Under the pieces are notes generated by a model. That model was not told where the DNA came from, did no database searches, and worked only from the letters and a program-made list of their open reading frames with translations. A stretch of DNA of 64,000 bases from an uncultured Flavobacteriaceae bacterium (GTDB taxonomy: Bacteria > Bacteroidota > Bacteroidia > Flavobacteriales > Flavobacteriaceae), in NCBI GenBank assembly GCA_947494205.1, contig CANLUH010000003.1, forward strand, positions 186,001-250,000, in the 5' to 3' direction. Both the position numbers and the translations under genes were made by a program. Of this stretch, positions 3,803-50,931 are shown one piece after another. Each line of letters begins with the position of its first letter. Within the stretch, counting starts at the first letter, position 1.

Positions 3803-5770
3803 ATGAAAACAAAAATTAAAATGGCAATATGGGGACTTTTATTAGCATTCAGTTTCTCATATGCTAACGAGAAAAGTAATGAACCTGTTTTAGAAACAGA
3901 ACCATTACGAGCTGCGAAAACATTAAAAAATTGGGCAGCAAGACATGGTATGTCTTCAAAAGCATACCAAGATAATTTTACGAAGTTTAGTAAAAAAGGT
4001 TTCCGATTAACAGCGGTAGATGGCTATTTAGTAAATGGTAAAATATACTATGCTGCATTATGGGAAAAAGGTAACACCTCTGGGTTGGTTGCTAGGCATG
4101 GATTAACAGGAAAACAATACCAAGCAGAATTTAGTAAATGGAGTAGCAAAGGTTACAGGTTAATACATGTAGATGGCTATTCTGATGGTAAAAGGGCAAG
4201 ATATGCGGCCATTTGGCAAAAAGGAAGCCAAGCGGGACTTAAAGCTAGACATGGATTAACAGGAAAACAGTATCAAGCAGAATTTACCAAATATCATAAA
4301 GCAGGATACAGGTTAGTACATGTTAGCGGTTATGGAGTAAAGGGAAAATTATACTACGCTGCTATTTGGAAAAAAGGAAAAAACAACGATTACATTGCTA
4401 GGCATGGTTTATCGAGCAAACAATACCAAGACGTCTTTACAAAGTATGCAAAAAAAGGATATAAGTTAACGCATATAGACAGTTACGATGCTAAAAACAA
4501 AGTATACTACGCTTGTATTATGGAAAAAGTAAACGGACGTTACAGTGCGCGCCATGGTATGAATAGTACAAACTACCAATTGCAATACGATAACCATTAC
4601 TATCAAGGTTTTATTCCAGTAAGTGTAAGTGGACACGACGGCGGTAAAAGAGCTGGCTATGCAGCATCTTTTAAAGCTGTAGGTGGTTGGAAATATGCAG
4701 ACGTAAAACAACTAGATGCAAAAATAAAAGCAGTACAAAAGCAATTTAAAATTCCTGGAGTGTCTATAGCTATTGTAAAAGATGGGAAGCTAGTCTATGC
4801 AAAAGGCTATGGTTATGGGGAGAAAGATAAAAAGGAAATTGCTTCGGCATCAAGTCTTTTTCGTCAAGCAAGTATTTCTAAATCATTTACTAGTGTTGCT
4901 ATTATGAAGTTAGTAGAACAAGGAAAACTAAAATTAACCGATAAAGTATTTGGACCCGGAAAAATATTAGGAACCACTTATGGGACTAAAGCCTATAGCA
5001 GTAGAGAAAAAGCAATAACTGTAGAACATTTATTAGAGCACACTGCGGGTGGACATGCATGGGATAATAACTCAAAGCCAGATAATGTAGATACTTGGGC
5101 TGCTGCTATGAAACTGGGCACAAAAGAAAGTTTCTCTGCTTTATTTAAAAGAATTTTAGATGGTAGAAACCCAACGCATACACCAGGGACGTTTTATGAG
5201 TATTCTAATTTTGGTTACTGTGTTTTAGGGCGTATTATCGCTAAAAAATCTGGAATGTCTTACGAGAATTATGTAAAGAAATATGTTTTAAAACCGAGTG
5301 GCATTAGTAGAATGCAAATAGGACCAAGCGATAAGAAAAAACGTGCTTATAAAGAAGTTGCCTATTATAATTCAGATTGGAGTCCATACAATTTAAAAAT
5401 GCAAAAAATGGATGCTCACGGCGGATGGATTGCTTCTTCGGTAGATTTAATGCGCTTTATGGTTCGTGTAGATGGGCAAGCTTCAAAAAAGGATATTATT
5501 AAAGCGTCTACATTTAAAACGATGACAACATCGTCTTTAAATAATGGCTACGCCAAAGGATGGGGTGTTAATAGTTCTGCATCAACAATGTCTCATGGCG
5601 GCGGAATGTCTGGAACAAGTACAACACTAAAGAAAATGAATAATAGTATTAGTTACGCTATTCTGTCTAATTCAACAGGAAATGGAAGTGGACAAGGTAG
5701 TGCTTTAAAAGCAGCAATTGAGCAAGGTATAAATGCTATAGGCACATGGCCAAATCTAGATTTATTTTAA
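3803..5770 (+). CDS. Secreted serine hydrolase (class C beta-lactamase family) with five N-terminal BTRD1-type repeats
   Basis: 655 residues from the Met that opens a good Sec signal peptide (KTKIKMAIWGLLLAFSFSYA). The in-frame Met 19 codons upstream would bury the signal. Residues ~38-290 are five ~50-residue repeats with the pattern ARHGL..KQYQ..F...GYRL..V.GY....YYAAIW, matching Bacterial tandem repeat domain 1 (BTRD1). Residues ~300-655 are a beta-lactamase-family transpeptidase-like domain: S357-I-S-K360 (SxxK), Y467-S-N469 (YxN), and H598-G-G-G in place of KTG. The same architecture occurs in fungal polyglycine hydrolases and in bacterial esterases/peptidases. Substrate is unknown. The next gene starts 16 bp downstream and carries related repeats. 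Confidence 0.85.
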   Translation: MKTKIKMAIWGLLLAFSFSYANEKSNEPVLETEPLRAAKTLKNWAARHGMSSKAYQDNFTKFSKKGFRLTAVDGYLVNGKIYYAALWEKGNTSGLVARHGLTGKQYQAEFSKWSSKGYRLIHVDGYSDGKRARYAAIWQKGSQAGLKARHGLTGKQYQAEFTKYHKAGYRLVHVSGYGVKGKLYYAAIWKKGKNNDYIARHGLSSKQYQDVFTKYAKKGYKLTHIDSYDAKNKVYYACIMEKVNGRYSARHGMNSTNYQLQYDNHYYQGFIPVSVSGHDGGKRAGYAASFKAVGGWKYADVKQLDAKIKAVQKQFKIPGVSIAIVKDGKLVYAKGYGYGEKDKKEIASASSLFRQASISKSFTSVAIMKLVEQGKLKLTDKVFGPGKILGTTYGTKAYSSREKAITVEHLLEHTAGGHAWDNNSKPDNVDTWAAAMKLGTKESFSALFKRILDGRNPTHTPGTFYEYSNFGYCVLGRIIAKKSGMSYENYVKKYVLKPSGISRMQIGPSDKKKRAYKEVAYYNSDWSPYNLKMQKMDAHGGWIASSVDLMRFMVRVDGQASKKDIIKASTFKTMTTSSLNNGYAKGWGVNSSASTMSHGGGMSGTSTTLKKMNNSISYAILSNSTGNGSGQGSALKAAIEQGINAIGTWPNLDLF

Positions 5771-46448: not shown

Positions 46449-46476
46449 ATTGTTTTTCAATAATTTTAATATATTT
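46449..46476 (+). promoter_or_regulatory. Promoter of the DUF2975 cassette
   Basis: TTG at 46449-46451, a 17-nt spacer and TATATTTG at 46469-46476, 36 nt before the first ATG. Fits the Bacteroidota -33/-7 consensus. Confidence 0.55.
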
Positions 46477-46512
46477 GTTATCGTTAAACAATAATAAAAT
46501 AATTTTTTAGAT

Positions 46513-47019
46513 ATGAAAACAGCCAATAGGTTAAAGTTACTAATAGATGTTTTTAGTATACTATTTATTATAATACTTGTAGGAATGCTTACAAGTAATT
46601 ATCCCTTCTTTTTTAAAGCTTATAATTGGAATGCTTTAAAACACACTCCCGTGTTTAGCTTTACTTTAATATATGTATTCCTTATACTAAAAAGCATTCT
46701 AACTATATTTGGTATTTTATATTTGCGTAAGGCTATTAAAGCTATTTTAATTAAAGAATATTTTTCGATTCAGGTTACTAAAAACTTAAAAAAAGCTGGA
46801 CATATTTTCGTTGCTGTTGGAGCAGGATATATAACAGTTTTTATAGTAGGTTTATTAAGAATACACAATGTCTTACAGTTTCGTTTAGAGTTTTTTCAAA
46901 TAGAATCAGTAGTAACTTTGGGGTTATTTGTAGTTATTATAGGTTTATTTTTTATACTTATAAGTTACCTTTTTACTCAAGCAAGAAGTCTTAAACAAGA
47001 AAACGAATTAACAATATAA
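46513..47019 (+). CDS. DUF2975 membrane protein, copy 1
   Basis: 168 residues with four transmembrane segments (~13-30, ~52-73, ~93-113, ~135-158) and a cytosolic tail. The last residues are QENELTI, shared by all four copies. DUF2975 proteins are small integral membrane proteins that, in many Gram-positive and Bacteroidota genomes, sit beside a small Xre-type regulator. The next ATG is 2 bp after the stop. A TTG-N17-TATATTTG promoter lies upstream. Confidence 0.8.
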   Translation: MKTANRLKLLIDVFSILFIIILVGMLTSNYPFFFKAYNWNALKHTPVFSFTLIYVFLILKSILTIFGILYLRKAIKAILIKEYFSIQVTKNLKKAGHIFVAVGAGYITVFIVGLLRIHNVLQFRLEFFQIESVVTLGLFVVIIGLFFILISYLFTQARSLKQENELTI

Positions 47020-47021
47020 TT

Positions 47022-47531
47022 ATGAAAAAACTTAATATTTTAAAAAGACTAATAGATGTCTTCTGGATTATGCTTTGCATTTTATCATTTGCTCTATTTT
47101 TATTTACTATTGCTTATCTAGTTTTTGGAGATTCTATTGTTGGGTTTCTTATTGAAAGAGCTGAACTTCAAATAGGGAATGTTTCTATAGTTAAAGTTAT
47201 AACTTTATCATTTTTCTTTCTAATATCATTAACAATTGCACATGTACTTTATTTATTTAAAAAAGCATTAGAGGCTTTTCAAAAACAGAATCCATTTAGT
47301 AATATAGTAGTGGCAAATTTTAACAAAATTGGAAAACTATTAATAGTTGTTGGGATTGTTCCTGGACTATTTTTCTTTGTACTTAGTTTATTTCCTATAT
47401 CTGATGTTGAATTTTTTGTTGAATTTGGTTCGAATTTAATAACGATCTGTATGGGGCTATTCTTTATCGTATTGAGTGAAGTTTTTAAAGTAGCTAAAAT
47501 GGTAAAAGAAGAAAACGAATTAACAATATAA
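47022..47531 (+). CDS. DUF2975 membrane protein, copy 2
   Basis: 169 residues, same four-helix layout. The loop between helices 2 and 3 keeps the pattern FKKALEAFQKQNPFS, where DUF2975 proteins have a conserved F/NPF-type motif. It ends EENELTI. Sequence identity to copy 1 is low except for the loop and tail, so these are old duplicates under constraint at the C-terminus. Gap to copy 3 is 2 bp. Confidence 0.8.
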   Translation: MKKLNILKRLIDVFWIMLCILSFALFLFTIAYLVFGDSIVGFLIERAELQIGNVSIVKVITLSFFFLISLTIAHVLYLFKKALEAFQKQNPFSNIVVANFNKIGKLLIVVGIVPGLFFFVLSLFPISDVEFFVEFGSNLITICMGLFFIVLSEVFKVAKMVKEENELTI

Positions 47532-47533
47532 TT

Positions 47534-48001
47534 ATGAAAAAAATAAAAATATTAAGAGCTATTATTTTAGTATTATTAACATTACAATTATTAAGCTTTG
47601 TCATGGGGTTTGTACAATATAATGAGTTTGAACAATTACATGAAACACTAATTTTTGGCAAGTTTAATTTTGTTATTCATTCAATCTTGTCATTATGTAC
47701 AATTGCGGGTTTGTTCTTTTTAGTTTTTGCCTTAAACGCAGTTATAAAGAAAGATTTCTTTGTGACTATAGCTACTAAACGATTTAAAATAGCTGGTCTA
47801 TTTCTTTTTATGGTTGGGTTAGGACAAATAGTATTTAATAGTGCTGTTTTAATTAAGGAAACGAATCTAAAAAATGAATACTTTTTTACTGGAATAGAAA
47901 AGGCATTTATTTTAATTGTAATAGCTTTTGGGCTATTTGTAGTTGCAGAATTAATACAGAACGGAAGTGTTTTAAAACAAGAAAACGAACTAACAATATA
48001 A
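47534..48001 (+). CDS. DUF2975 membrane protein, copy 3
   Basis: 155 residues with four hydrophobic segments and the loop sequence VFALNAVIKKDFFVTIATKR before helix 3. It ends KQENELTI exactly like copy 1. The charged cytosolic tail is short (about 12 residues after the last helix). Gap to copy 4 is 2 bp, so the cassette is a single operon. Confidence 0.8.
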   Translation: MKKIKILRAIILVLLTLQLLSFVMGFVQYNEFEQLHETLIFGKFNFVIHSILSLCTIAGLFFLVFALNAVIKKDFFVTIATKRFKIAGLFLFMVGLGQIVFNSAVLIKETNLKNEYFFTGIEKAFILIVIAFGLFVVAELIQNGSVLKQENELTI

Positions 48002-48003
48002 GT

Positions 48004-48459
48004 ATGAAAACTATAAAATTAAGAATGTTTGGTAAGTATTCTGTATCATCACTATTTTTTTGGAGTTTTATTTTATGCTTTATATTAACAACTCCATTAT
48101 TTATAGCAATGCCTTTTTCGGGGCTTTTAAGAGCATTTTTTGGGTTATTGTCGTTTGCTCAAATTGCACTTTTTTTTACCCCTAAAGTGATTTTCTTTTA
48201 TTTGCTAATTTTAATATTTAAGTCTTTTAAAACAGAAACGATATTTACAAAAAAAACGATTAATTATTTACATTTATTTGCAGGCATTAATTTTATAATA
48301 GCATTACTAATTATTGTATCTACAAAATTAGATATCTATTGGGTTAAAGAAATGATTCCCATATTTCCTTTTGTTATTTTAGGTATATTTTCTGCATTTA
48401 TTGCAGCCATTTTTAAACAAGGTTTTCAGATTCAACAAGAAAACGAACTAACAATATAA
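48004..48459 (+). CDS. DUF2975 membrane protein, copy 4
   Basis: 151 residues, four hydrophobic segments. It is the most diverged copy, with a longer hydrophobic loop after helix 1 (MPFSGLLRAFFGLLSFAQIA). It ends QQENELTI. The small Xre regulator starts 2 bp after its stop. The shared tail next to the regulator suggests a common partner that binds it, most simply the regulator itself. Confidence 0.8.
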   Translation: MKTIKLRMFGKYSVSSLFFWSFILCFILTTPLFIAMPFSGLLRAFFGLLSFAQIALFFTPKVIFFYLLILIFKSFKTETIFTKKTINYLHLFAGINFIIALLIIVSTKLDIYWVKEMIPIFPFVILGIFSAFIAAIFKQGFQIQQENELTI

Positions 48460-48461
48460 TC

Positions 48462-48668
48462 ATGTCAATAATTGTGAACTTAGATGTCATGCTTGCCAAA
48501 CGCAAGATGAAAAGCAAAGATCTAGCAGAGATTATTGGCATTACTACAGCTAATTTGTCTATACTAAAGTCAGGTAAGGCAAAAGCAGTACGATTTTCTA
48601 CATTAGAAGCTATTTGTAAAGCCTTAGAATGTCAACCAAGTGATATTTTAGAATATGTTGAAGACTAA
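48462..48668 (+). CDS. Small Xre/YozG-type helix-turn-helix regulator
   Basis: 68 residues, essentially one HTH domain. MLAKRKMKSKDLAEIIGITT forms the first two helices, then NLSILKSGKAKAVRFSTLEA and CQPSDILEYVED. This matches YozG-like regulators that accompany DUF2975 proteins. It probably controls the cassette. Its last 14 bases overlap the start of the GNAT gene. Confidence 0.9.
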   Translation: MSIIVNLDVMLAKRKMKSKDLAEIIGITTANLSILKSGKAKAVRFSTLEAICKALECQPSDILEYVED

Positions 48669-49234: not shown

Positions 49235-50494
49235 ATGTTTGCATTAGTTGATTGTAATAATTTTTATGCTTCATGCGAACGTGCTTTTAACCCAAACTTA
49301 CAAGGAAAACCAGTAGCTATTTTAAGTAATAACGATGGTTGCGTAATATCACGAAGCGATGAAGCAAAAGCTATTGGCTTGCCAATGGGCGCACCTATTT
49401 TTAAATGGGAAGCCTTTTGCAAGACCAATAATATACATGTGCTGTCTTCTAATTATCCTTTATATGGAGATATGAGTAGTCGGGTCATGTCTATACTATC
49501 GCAGTTTACACCAGACGTAGAGTTATACAGTATAGACGAGTCATTTATAGAATTTAAAAACTTTAAAACCGATTTTAATTACAACGACTACGGCTTTCAA
49601 ATAAGAACACGAGTTTTAAAATGGACAGGCATACCAACATCGGTTGGGATTGCACCAACCAAAGCACTGTCTAAAGTAGCCAACAAGATAGCACGAAAGT
49701 TCCCCAATGAAACCAAAGGCGTATATGTTATAGATTCTGAAGAGAAACGCATAAAAGCTTTAAAATGGATTAAAATTGAAGATGTTTGGGGTATTGGTAG
49801 ACGTTTGGCAGAACGTTTAAAGATGAAAGGTTGTAAAACAGCTTTCGATTTTACAGCGTTACCTGATGCTTGGGTAAAACAAAACTTCTCGGTTATAGAA
49901 GCACGATTAAAACGCGATTTAGAAGGTATCCCCACATTGCAATTAGACGAGCATAAAGATCGTAAAATGATTGCCACTACGCGAAGTTTTGAGTACACCT
50001 ATTCCGATATCGATAATATAAAAGAACGCATTTCTACATTTGCCTCTAGTTGTGCCGAAAAACTTAGAAAACAAAATTCTAGTTGCTACGTTATTATAGT
50101 AACATTACGTAGCGATAGACATAAAAAAGGAGCAGAGCAACACAGGGTAAGTACTAGTGTTAATTTAACCTATCCTACAAACTCCTCGTTAATTATAAGT
50201 AATTATGCTATTAGCGCAGTAATGTCTATATTTAAAGAAGGAATAAAATATAAGCGGGCAGGTGTTATTGTAACAGGATTGGTACCAACAGATAATTATC
50301 AATTAAATATGTTTCACGAAGAAAACCCGAAACATAAACCCTTAATGGCCTCTATAGATAGTTTAAACACTAAATATGGAAGCAATAAAATAAAATTAGG
50401 AAGCCAAGATTTACAGCGCACCTGGAAAATGCGGCAAGAGCGTTTATCGCCAAGATATACCACTAATATTAACGATATTATAGTTGTGAAATGA
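49235..50494 (+). CDS. umuC: Y-family DNA polymerase V catalytic subunit UmuC
   Basis: 419 residues. The N-terminal catalytic block FALVDCNNFYASCERAF and the YSIDESFIEF motif supply the metal-binding acidic residues. HhH, thumb and little-finger domains follow, with the C-terminal QDLQRTWKMRQERLSPRYTT typical of UmuC. It performs translesion synthesis with UmuD'. A TATCTTTA box lies 7-14 bases before the ATG. It comes before umuD, the reverse of the E. coli order, with a 4-base overlap (ATGA). Confidence 0.94.
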   Translation: MFALVDCNNFYASCERAFNPNLQGKPVAILSNNDGCVISRSDEAKAIGLPMGAPIFKWEAFCKTNNIHVLSSNYPLYGDMSSRVMSILSQFTPDVELYSIDESFIEFKNFKTDFNYNDYGFQIRTRVLKWTGIPTSVGIAPTKALSKVANKIARKFPNETKGVYVIDSEEKRIKALKWIKIEDVWGIGRRLAERLKMKGCKTAFDFTALPDAWVKQNFSVIEARLKRDLEGIPTLQLDEHKDRKMIATTRSFEYTYSDIDNIKERISTFASSCAEKLRKQNSSCYVIIVTLRSDRHKKGAEQHRVSTSVNLTYPTNSSLIISNYAISAVMSIFKEGIKYKRAGVIVTGLVPTDNYQLNMFHEENPKHKPLMASIDSLNTKYGSNKIKLGSQDLQRTWKMRQERLSPRYTTNINDIIVVK

Positions 50495-50931
50495 TAGTAC
50501 ATAAATCAGGAAGTTTAACCTTCTTTACACCAGAAACAGTAGACGATGCAGCAGCACAGTTTTTCGATACAGGAATCTCGGCTGGGTTTCCATCGCCAGC
50601 AGACGATTTTAAAGAGCAACGTTTATCTTTAGACGAAGAACTAGTAAAAAATAAAGAAGCCACGTTTTATGCTAGAGTTAGCGGACAATCTATGATTGGT
50701 GCTGGACTAGAAGATAACGACCTATTAGTAATAGATCGTAGCCTAGAACCTAGTAATAACAAAATAGCTGTTTGCTTTTTAGATGGAGAATTTACAGTAA
50801 AACGATTACGAGTAGATAATGAAGAGGTGTGGTTACAACCAGAAAACCCTAACTATCCCATTATTAAAATTACCGAAGACAATAACTTCCTTATTTGGGG
50901 CATCGTTACTAATGTGATTAAAAAAGTATAA
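50491..50931 (+). CDS. umuD: UmuD, S24/LexA-family autoprotease
   Basis: 146 residues, close to E. coli UmuD (139). The cleavage site A31-G32 (ISAGFPSPADDF), the serine S67 in VSGQSMIGAG and the lysine K104 in FTVKRLRV are intact. RecA-stimulated self-cleavage yields UmuD' for polymerase V. Translation is coupled to umuC by a 4-nt overlap. The following AraC regulator starts 5 bp after its stop but is probably unrelated. Confidence 0.94.
   Translation: MIVHKSGSLTFFTPETVDDAAAQFFDTGISAGFPSPADDFKEQRLSLDEELVKNKEATFYARVSGQSMIGAGLEDNDLLVIDRSLEPSNNKIAVCFLDGEFTVKRLRVDNEEVWLQPENPNYPIIKITEDNNFLIWGIVTNVIKKV

Follow-up and report, generated by a model that had tools for sequence, protein, structure and literature searches.

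A shared C-terminal tail of four tandem DUF2975 membrane proteins very probably docks on the co-encoded Xre repressor

We describe an array of four DUF2975 membrane protein genes followed by one Xre regulator gene, located in a stretch of 64,000 nucleotides (the window) from an uncultured Flavobacteriaceae bacterium (contig CANLUH010000003.1, positions 186,001 to 250,000), and compare it with systems in which a membrane protein controls a repressor. In the case of Mlc and PtsG, a membrane protein takes the glucose repressor off DNA; these proteins are unrelated to DUF2975 and Xre, and the sequestering is done by a transporter domain, not by a C-terminal peptide. In the case of SdpI and SdpR, the repressor is of the ArsR type and not an Xre protein, and we know of no shared tail in this system. 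The consulted sections of the corresponding paper describe a signal-dependent sequestration of the autorepressor SdpR by SdpI at the membrane of Bacillus subtilis (PMC1626106). The likeness to our locus lies in a membrane protein and an autorepressor within one operon, the difference in the number of membrane proteins, which is one for SdpI/SdpR. The four DUF2975 proteins showed no match to the SdpI family up to E 1 in a search with Pfam sequence profiles only and are not assigned to it. A further parallel is found in Enterococcus faecalis, where, according to a model in the consulted sections of the source, CylR2 is acted on by the membrane protein CylR1 (PMC3709268). There, too, a small repressor lies beside a suspected membrane protein needed for induction, and among known folds that of CylR2 matches this type of Xre best. 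CylR1, compared here by description only, has three predicted membrane helices as opposed to the four modelled in DUF2975, and a docking tail is not mentioned for it in those sections (PMC3709268). A preliminary description of this DNA had stated that no system with such a logic was known, which, as far as the consulted parts of both papers go, was too strong.

The same two families in the same gene order are found in the pair of Bacillus and others that we take to bear the names YoaS/YozG (DUF2975 and an HTH_26 Xre), with the difference that here four membrane proteins go with one regulator. A pair from a Bacillus mojavensis record has a DUF2975 protein ending in ENDLTV (locus L154), alanine at Xre residue 42 and an upstream palindrome with one mismatch (L176). 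In the open-licence literature searched, we found no function, tail or operator described for the YoaS/YozG pair, no assigned function for DUF2975 and no membrane protein with a C-terminal tail that sequesters an Xre repressor. The consulted part of a Mycoplasma restriction-modification paper uses ‘YozG’ as a subfamily name, and Makarova 2009 (PMC2701414), in the sections considered, lists the Xre/YoaS-like association as ‘a membrane protein, likely permease’ and sets it aside. Thus, going by these sections, the logic of a repressor held at the membrane is already known and the family pair has been on record since 2009 (PMC2701414). In the open-licence literature searched, however, we came across neither the shared plug and the residue code nor the operator and the many-to-one arrays.

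The main result presented here is that the tail very probably plugs into the co-encoded Xre repressor. The locus as a whole is probably a self-regulated membrane-signalling module, in which the Xre autorepressor would be freed from DNA by docking on the DUF2975 tails. The computation backs the linkage of tail and Xre, their coevolution, a predicted contact and a conserved operator; from these we infer competition with DNA, sequestration at the membrane, sensing and an OR-type logic.

Open reading frames and Pfam searches agree with the preliminary description as to the arrangement of the locus, i.e. four tandem DUF2975 genes and one Xre gene of 68 codons (Table 1), with every spacer in the array measuring 2 bp, including the one from the last DUF2975 gene to Xre. 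All four proteins exceed the gathering cut-off of PF11188 (27 bits), two of them narrowly, and the regulator is far over the cut-off of PF13443 (91.6 versus 22 bits). As a YozG-like Xre gene comes immediately after a DUF2975 gene in the same orientation, this is a module of the YoaS/YozG type. Beyond these four genes, no further DUF2975 match above the PF11188 cut-off was found in the own genome. The proteins end, in gene order, in QENELTI, EENELTI, QENELTI and QENELTI, and their bodies without the tail are, as had been noted, strongly diverged, with pairwise identities of 23-36%.

Related operons were collected from several samples. PF11188 matches were found in 51 of 198 Bacteroidota genomes, 17 of 40 relatives, 27 of 119 genomes of the phylum of L154 (Bacillus) and 20 of 200 genomes of the phylum of L134 (Legionella). 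Because this profile spans the tail, recruitment with it is biased to tailed proteins, which was offset by recruitment with an Xre profile (matches in 55 of 349, 57 of 247 and 64 of 249 genomes of three phyla) and with a profile of the DUF2975 body only. A further regulator-based sample consists of the best 80 of at least 586 matches obtained when genome contigs were scanned. The distinct Xre loci numbered 301, with a DUF2975-profile match upstream in 269; together with 13 divergent upstream genes accepted by eye after viewing their ends, this gave 282 DUF2975/Xre pairs from several phyla. The 19 excluded loci comprise four behind a gene of about 465 codons, L170, L101 and 13 without a clear upstream DUF2975.

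Counting back from the C-terminus, the tail rule was defined as E or D at -6, one of T, V, F, Y, I or M at -2 and I, V or L as the last residue. Of the 282 pairs, 278 have I, V or L as the last residue, exactly at the C-terminus, and 276 have E or D at position -6. As tails of this kind are met again in related operons of other phyla, they are not a product of chance. The ENELTI tail pointed out in the preliminary description is thus real in this array, and is a general property of Xre-linked DUF2975 proteins rather than a specific one of the array.

The tails could also be alike by shared ancestry, by a constraint of the DNA on the next start or by gene conversion, with no docking at all, and the last 21 coding bases of the four window genes, identical between copies at 19-21 of 21 positions while the bodies share 23-36%, speak for this. 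Across the 282 pairs, however, several synonymous codons are used per tail position (threonine at -2 is encoded by ACG in 78, ACC in 55, ACA in 49 and ACT in 34 cases), all three stop codons follow the tail, and the spacers to Xre range from overlaps up to 30 bp, mostly 1-4 or 9-17 bp. This variability leads us to reject an explanation at the DNA level and to place the constraint on the protein. Furthermore, the tail is lost with Xre though the body is mostly kept, and a covariation of tail and Xre recurs on separate branches (both described below). We therefore hold this explanation to be very improbable and largely refuted. As for conversion of the 3' ends, a mechanism named earlier as a possible refutation of docking, it cannot account for a tail that is kept in different phyla with free use of codons; a local homogenization of the four ends is possible.

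Docking of the tail on Xre is further supported by linkage. In the first Bacteroidota sample, the tail rule holds for 64 of 65 DUF2975 proteins with an Xre on the same strand in the fetched stretch and for 2 of 11 without one (Fisher p 4e-9), so that the tail is not equally present in proteins lacking a linked regulator, as a refutation of docking would have it. This table covers 76 of 79 listed matches, none of them from the 15 genomes found only among the 40 relatives; left out were a match on contig 1 of the own genome, G028 (internal stops) and G095:C1:511470 (a frame of 1171 codons). In further rows, among them those of the L154-phylum and L134-phylum samples, 50 of 52 Xre-linked proteins follow the rule; this second table holds 53 of 57 rows, as L206, L207, L229 and L230 were dropped and two matches without a locus lie outside. 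With the body-only profile, 395 genomes yielded 14 clade members, of which all three with Xre in the fetched stretch end in ENDLTI and none of the 11 without it does. Ten of these 11 keep a near full-length DUF2975 body, L246 being a short frame; some of their genomes carry an Xre elsewhere. In L093/L233, a decayed Xre reading frame (L093:1797-2138) still lies behind a DUF2975 whose tail is cut to SDND, and in L009/L238 frames that we label transposase-like from their reading frames occupy the expected place of Xre, the tail being ENDLIV. Taken together, the clade and the decayed cases indicate that the tail tends to decay once the regulator goes, with the membrane part kept.

These data also bear on the idea of a toxin-antitoxin-like pair, in which a harmful membrane protein would be neutralized through its tail by an Xre antitoxin that also represses the operon. 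A two-gene operon with a helix-turn-helix regulator fits this idea, and a Xre/YoaS-like pair did surface in the toxin-antitoxin screen of Makarova 2009, which, in the sections considered, excluded it (PMC2701414). Against it stand the 11 of 14 clade members that, L246 apart, retain the presumed toxin nearly complete with no Xre in the fetched stretch, an argument qualified by the genomes with an Xre elsewhere, and the single Xre that serves four DUF2975 copies here. Overall, we consider such a pair distinctly improbable.

To describe the coevolution of the two proteins, distances in windows of eight DUF2975 columns were correlated with Xre distance in 183 pairs (seven accepted by eye), controlling for the rest of the protein. 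Of 113 windows, those of the tail show the highest partial correlation with Xre (0.38). A second peak (0.20) falls on the loop between DUF2975 helices 2 and 3; assuming a four-helix protein, we place this loop in the cytosol together with the tail. All windows outside these two regions remain under 0.16. In 900 draws, sets of conserved body columns did not exceed 0.235, compared to 0.38 for the tail. When tails were permuted within body clusters, 5, 42 and 15 of 500 permutations were as high at three cluster cuts; the signal within clades is therefore moderate.

At the residue level, mutual information ranks tail position -2 with Xre residue 42 first (z 12.2) and -2 with residue 46 second (z 8.9), the best body pair reaching z 6.8. 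Among the 282 rows, the -2/42 combinations are T/A (215), V/A (4), F/G (35), I/G (12), Y/G (7) and M/G (4); when grouped, 219 are T or V with Ala, 58 are F, I, Y or M with Gly, and T with Gly does not occur. The exceptions are I/A (L146), L/A (L388), R/A (L301), M/A (L393) and a gap (L018, a partial regulator). The 269 profile-matched loci alone give T/A 200, V/A 4, F/G 30, I/G 10, Y/G 7, M/G 1, I/A 1 and R/A 1, with 15 unreadable by the motif script. The pair thus reads as a match of size, with a small residue beside Ala and a bulky one beside Gly. The match also holds among 39 representatives below 70% Xre identity (26 T/V-Ala, 12 bulky-Gly, one exception), for which, as for the tree, L301, L393 and L018 had been removed. 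A tree inferred with these columns removed shows five changes of residue 42 and seven of the size class at -2. Each of the five lies on a branch on which -2 changes its size class as well; with changes placed at random by branch length, 200,000 trials yielded no more than 3 coincidences. One of the five is found in L064, which lies within a bulky/Gly clade and shows a joint return to T and Ala.

Natural read-through fusions were modelled with AlphaFold2, i.e. loci with an in-frame spacer, the stop being read as glycine (alignment of 29 rows, first row L173). The L173 fusion (pLDDT 85.9) shows four long helices, a short strand at T150-I151, i.e. tail positions -2 and -1, and another one at 199-200, corresponding to I43-R44 of Xre. 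Modelled alone (pLDDT 74.4), Xre has strands at 2-5 and 63-66 only and none at 43-44. Most likely, therefore, the two strands that the fusion adds form a pair beside residue 42. In structure searches, the Xre part of the model resembles the CylR2, SinR and P22 c2 repressors. CylR2 is the best match (Foldseek E 0.015; VIA-align Z 11.1, rmsd 1.7 over 65 residues), with many Xre repressors within 1-2 Z units of it; the matching rows cover mostly the Xre part and barely touch the membrane part. Altogether, linkage, coevolution, covariation of -2 and 42 and the fusion strands lend good support to the earlier suggestion that the tail docks on the regulator.

Regarding the DNA side, two operator-like palindromes lie upstream of the array with a start-to-start distance of 31 bp, and the TATATTTG element between them resembles what we take to be the -7 element of Bacteroidota promoters. 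The only exact copies of the 17-bp palindrome TTATYGTTWWWCRATAA in the own genome of 5.06 Mb are these two array sites. At up to two mismatches, 195 of 277 regions upstream of related operons from several phyla contain it, compared with 4 of 831 shuffles; exact copies occur in 77 of the 277 regions and in no shuffle, the shuffles keeping base content but not dinucleotide content. One mismatch added seven further places in the own genome, similar to a reversed-pattern control (3 forward and 3 reverse), and no target of a wider regulon is claimed. As exact sites occur only at the array and one-mismatch matches stay at background, the sequence points to a dedicated autorepressor.

The proposed mechanism would combine these elements as follows. 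Firstly, Xre would bind the two palindromes flanking the promoter and repress its own operon. Secondly, each DUF2975 would be a four-helix membrane protein whose cytosolic C-terminus bears E-x-[DE]-L-T-I as docking peptide, its carboxylate being free, and this peptide would sit at residues 42-46 of Xre, in the segment that separates recognition helix 3 from helix 4. With the tail docked, Xre would be retained at the membrane and away from DNA, and the operon would open. Any of the four proteins, if abundant or if its tail were exposed by a stimulus, could dock Xre, giving four inputs to one repressor; from the divergence of the four, our guess is that they are sensors with different inputs. 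In the 434 repressor, the loop between helices 3 and 4 touches the DNA backbone. By eye, Xre residues 42-46 align with this segment, presumably a DNA-contacting one, which is why a docked tail should keep Xre off DNA. Release at the membrane, as in the case of SdpI/SdpR, is favored over the opposite sign of control, itself possible, because a negatively charged tail at 42-46 would compete with DNA. Linkage and covariation apply equally if the tail docks without blocking DNA, so that DUF2975 would anchor the DNA-bound repressor at the membrane or act as a co-repressor, and none of this evidence gives the direction of control. Simultaneous binding, however, looks hindered by the alignment of 42-46 with the presumed DNA-contacting loop, and we consider anchoring or co-repression unlikely.

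Several observations weigh against release of Xre by docking tails. Without size classes, which were chosen after the table had been seen, only three of the five changes coincide (z 4.9), and although this ungrouped value tops 7,260 pairs, it is barely ahead of others at 4.8 and 4.7; the treekit sign test, with too few independent pairs, falls short of significance. Strand pairing is deduced from the secondary structure and confidence of AlphaFold2, the artificial tether of the fusion keeps tail and Xre close (linker block pLDDT 53), and the fusion alignment contains the same covariation signal; for these reasons the fusion model serves as supporting evidence. On the DNA side, 82 of 277 operons have no site at up to two mismatches, and the palindrome pattern was derived from the same loci in which it was counted. 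Most positions of the four tails in this array are encoded by identical codons, and their likeness may owe something to local gene conversion or to a constraint of the next start site. Finally, L009 and L024 are Xre-less proteins with a good tail, and L192 is unlinked yet follows the rule, its genome having two other Xre modules. Three Xre-less proteins with a conforming tail would suit a tail that binds another cytosolic partner, e.g. a protease, while Xre merely co-travels. As this would leave the size-matched -2/42 pair and the coevolution peak unexplained, we attach only a very slight probability to it.

With docking on Xre as the preferred reading, DUF2975 and YozG-like regulators in several phyla gain a testable mechanism, with the last six residues as plug, Xre residues 42-46 as socket and the 17-bp palindrome as operator. 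A tail that is bulky at -2 would be predicted to be rescued by combination with Gly42. If true, this would be a simple pathway from membrane to DNA with a readable specificity code, and a natural way of wiring several inputs into one repressor.

Table 1. Features of the DUF2975/Xre array, in window positions
Feature	Position	Strand	Details
Operator-like palindrome 1, TTATTGTTTTTCAATAA	46447..46463		exact match to TTATYGTTWWWCRATAA
TATATTTG element	46470..46477	+	between the two palindromes; from sequence
Operator-like palindrome 2, TTATCGTTAAACAATAA	46478..46494		ends 18 bp before first ATG
DUF2975 membrane protein 1	46513..47019	+	168 aa; tail ENELTI 46999-47016; PF11188 30.7 bits
DUF2975 membrane protein 2	47022..47531	+	169 aa; tail ENELTI 47511-47528; PF11188 48.1 bits
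DUF2975 membrane protein 3	47534..48001	+	155 aa; tail ENELTI 47981-47998; PF11188 28.5 bits
DUF2975 membrane protein 4	48004..48459	+	151 aa; tail ENELTI 48439-48456; PF11188 32.0 bits
Xre/HTH_26 regulator	48462..48668	+	68 aa; PF13443 91.6 bits, E 3.6e-26
Predicted socket in Xre	residues A42-S46; codon 42 = 48585-48587	+	covariation with tail -2 and AlphaFold2 strand 43-44 (L173 fusion)

The loci around the 282 pairs contain 22 arrays of at least two DUF2975 genes: 17 have two genes, 2 have three and 3, with the present one counted, have four. Four-gene arrays are thus rare and not unique; many loci extend only about 1.5 kb upstream, and longer arrays may be cut. In 27 of the 30 upstream array members, position -2 is T or V, which counts in favor of the proposed module, the exceptions being L164 (truncated), L023 (ENGLMV) and L131 (a doubtful member). 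At L101:1334-4213, three DUF2975 genes are followed by a gene with a beta-lactamase fold (PF00144) and then by their Xre.

Paralogous modules within one cell tend to differ in their apparent plug-and-socket type, since 19 of the 28 genomes with at least two modules hold both a T/Ala and a bulky/Gly module. This, too, favors the proposed module. Counted among the 28 are G081, whose single locus was fetched twice, and G919, whose second module is broken; 72 rows have no assigned genome. For the 26 genomes left after removal of the duplicate and the broken module, the chance under random assortment is 2.5e-4, with kinship ignored. Whether there is a widespread and so far undescribed signalling family, in which divergent membrane proteins with a common C-terminal plug share one socket on a dedicated autorepressor, a size code of tail -2 and Xre 42 insulates paralogous modules of one cell and duplicates form multi-input arrays, seems to us evenly balanced.

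Some loci depart from the usual arrangement. L170:375-884 encodes a protein of 169 residues with a hydrophobic N-terminus and no DUF2975 match, which ends in ESSLTI ten bases before an Xre of the same type and is perhaps an unrelated protein with the same plug. L137:93-1997 is an open frame of 634 codons, in which residues 536-634 are a DUF2975 ending in ENELTI, possibly a fusion. In four Bacteroidales records (L132, L142, L160 and L168; Xre at 4001), a YozG-like Xre lies directly behind a gene of 455-474 codons that is not DUF2975; there is no tail, and Xre residue 42 is Ala. In L132, the one of the four on which a family search was made, the upstream gene belongs to Band_7/SPFH (PF01145). 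A DUF4153 gene (PF13687) lies downstream of the module in L126:4232-5809, L158:4220-5857 and L163:4227-5837, and is possibly a target or output of the module.

In the window itself, a GNAT acetyltransferase gene (PF00583, 48655-49203) shares 14 bp with the 3' end of the Xre gene and is possibly co-transcribed with it. Further on, at 49235-50931, two genes resemble an error-prone polymerase operon of the umuC/umuD type, a label given from reading the sequence.

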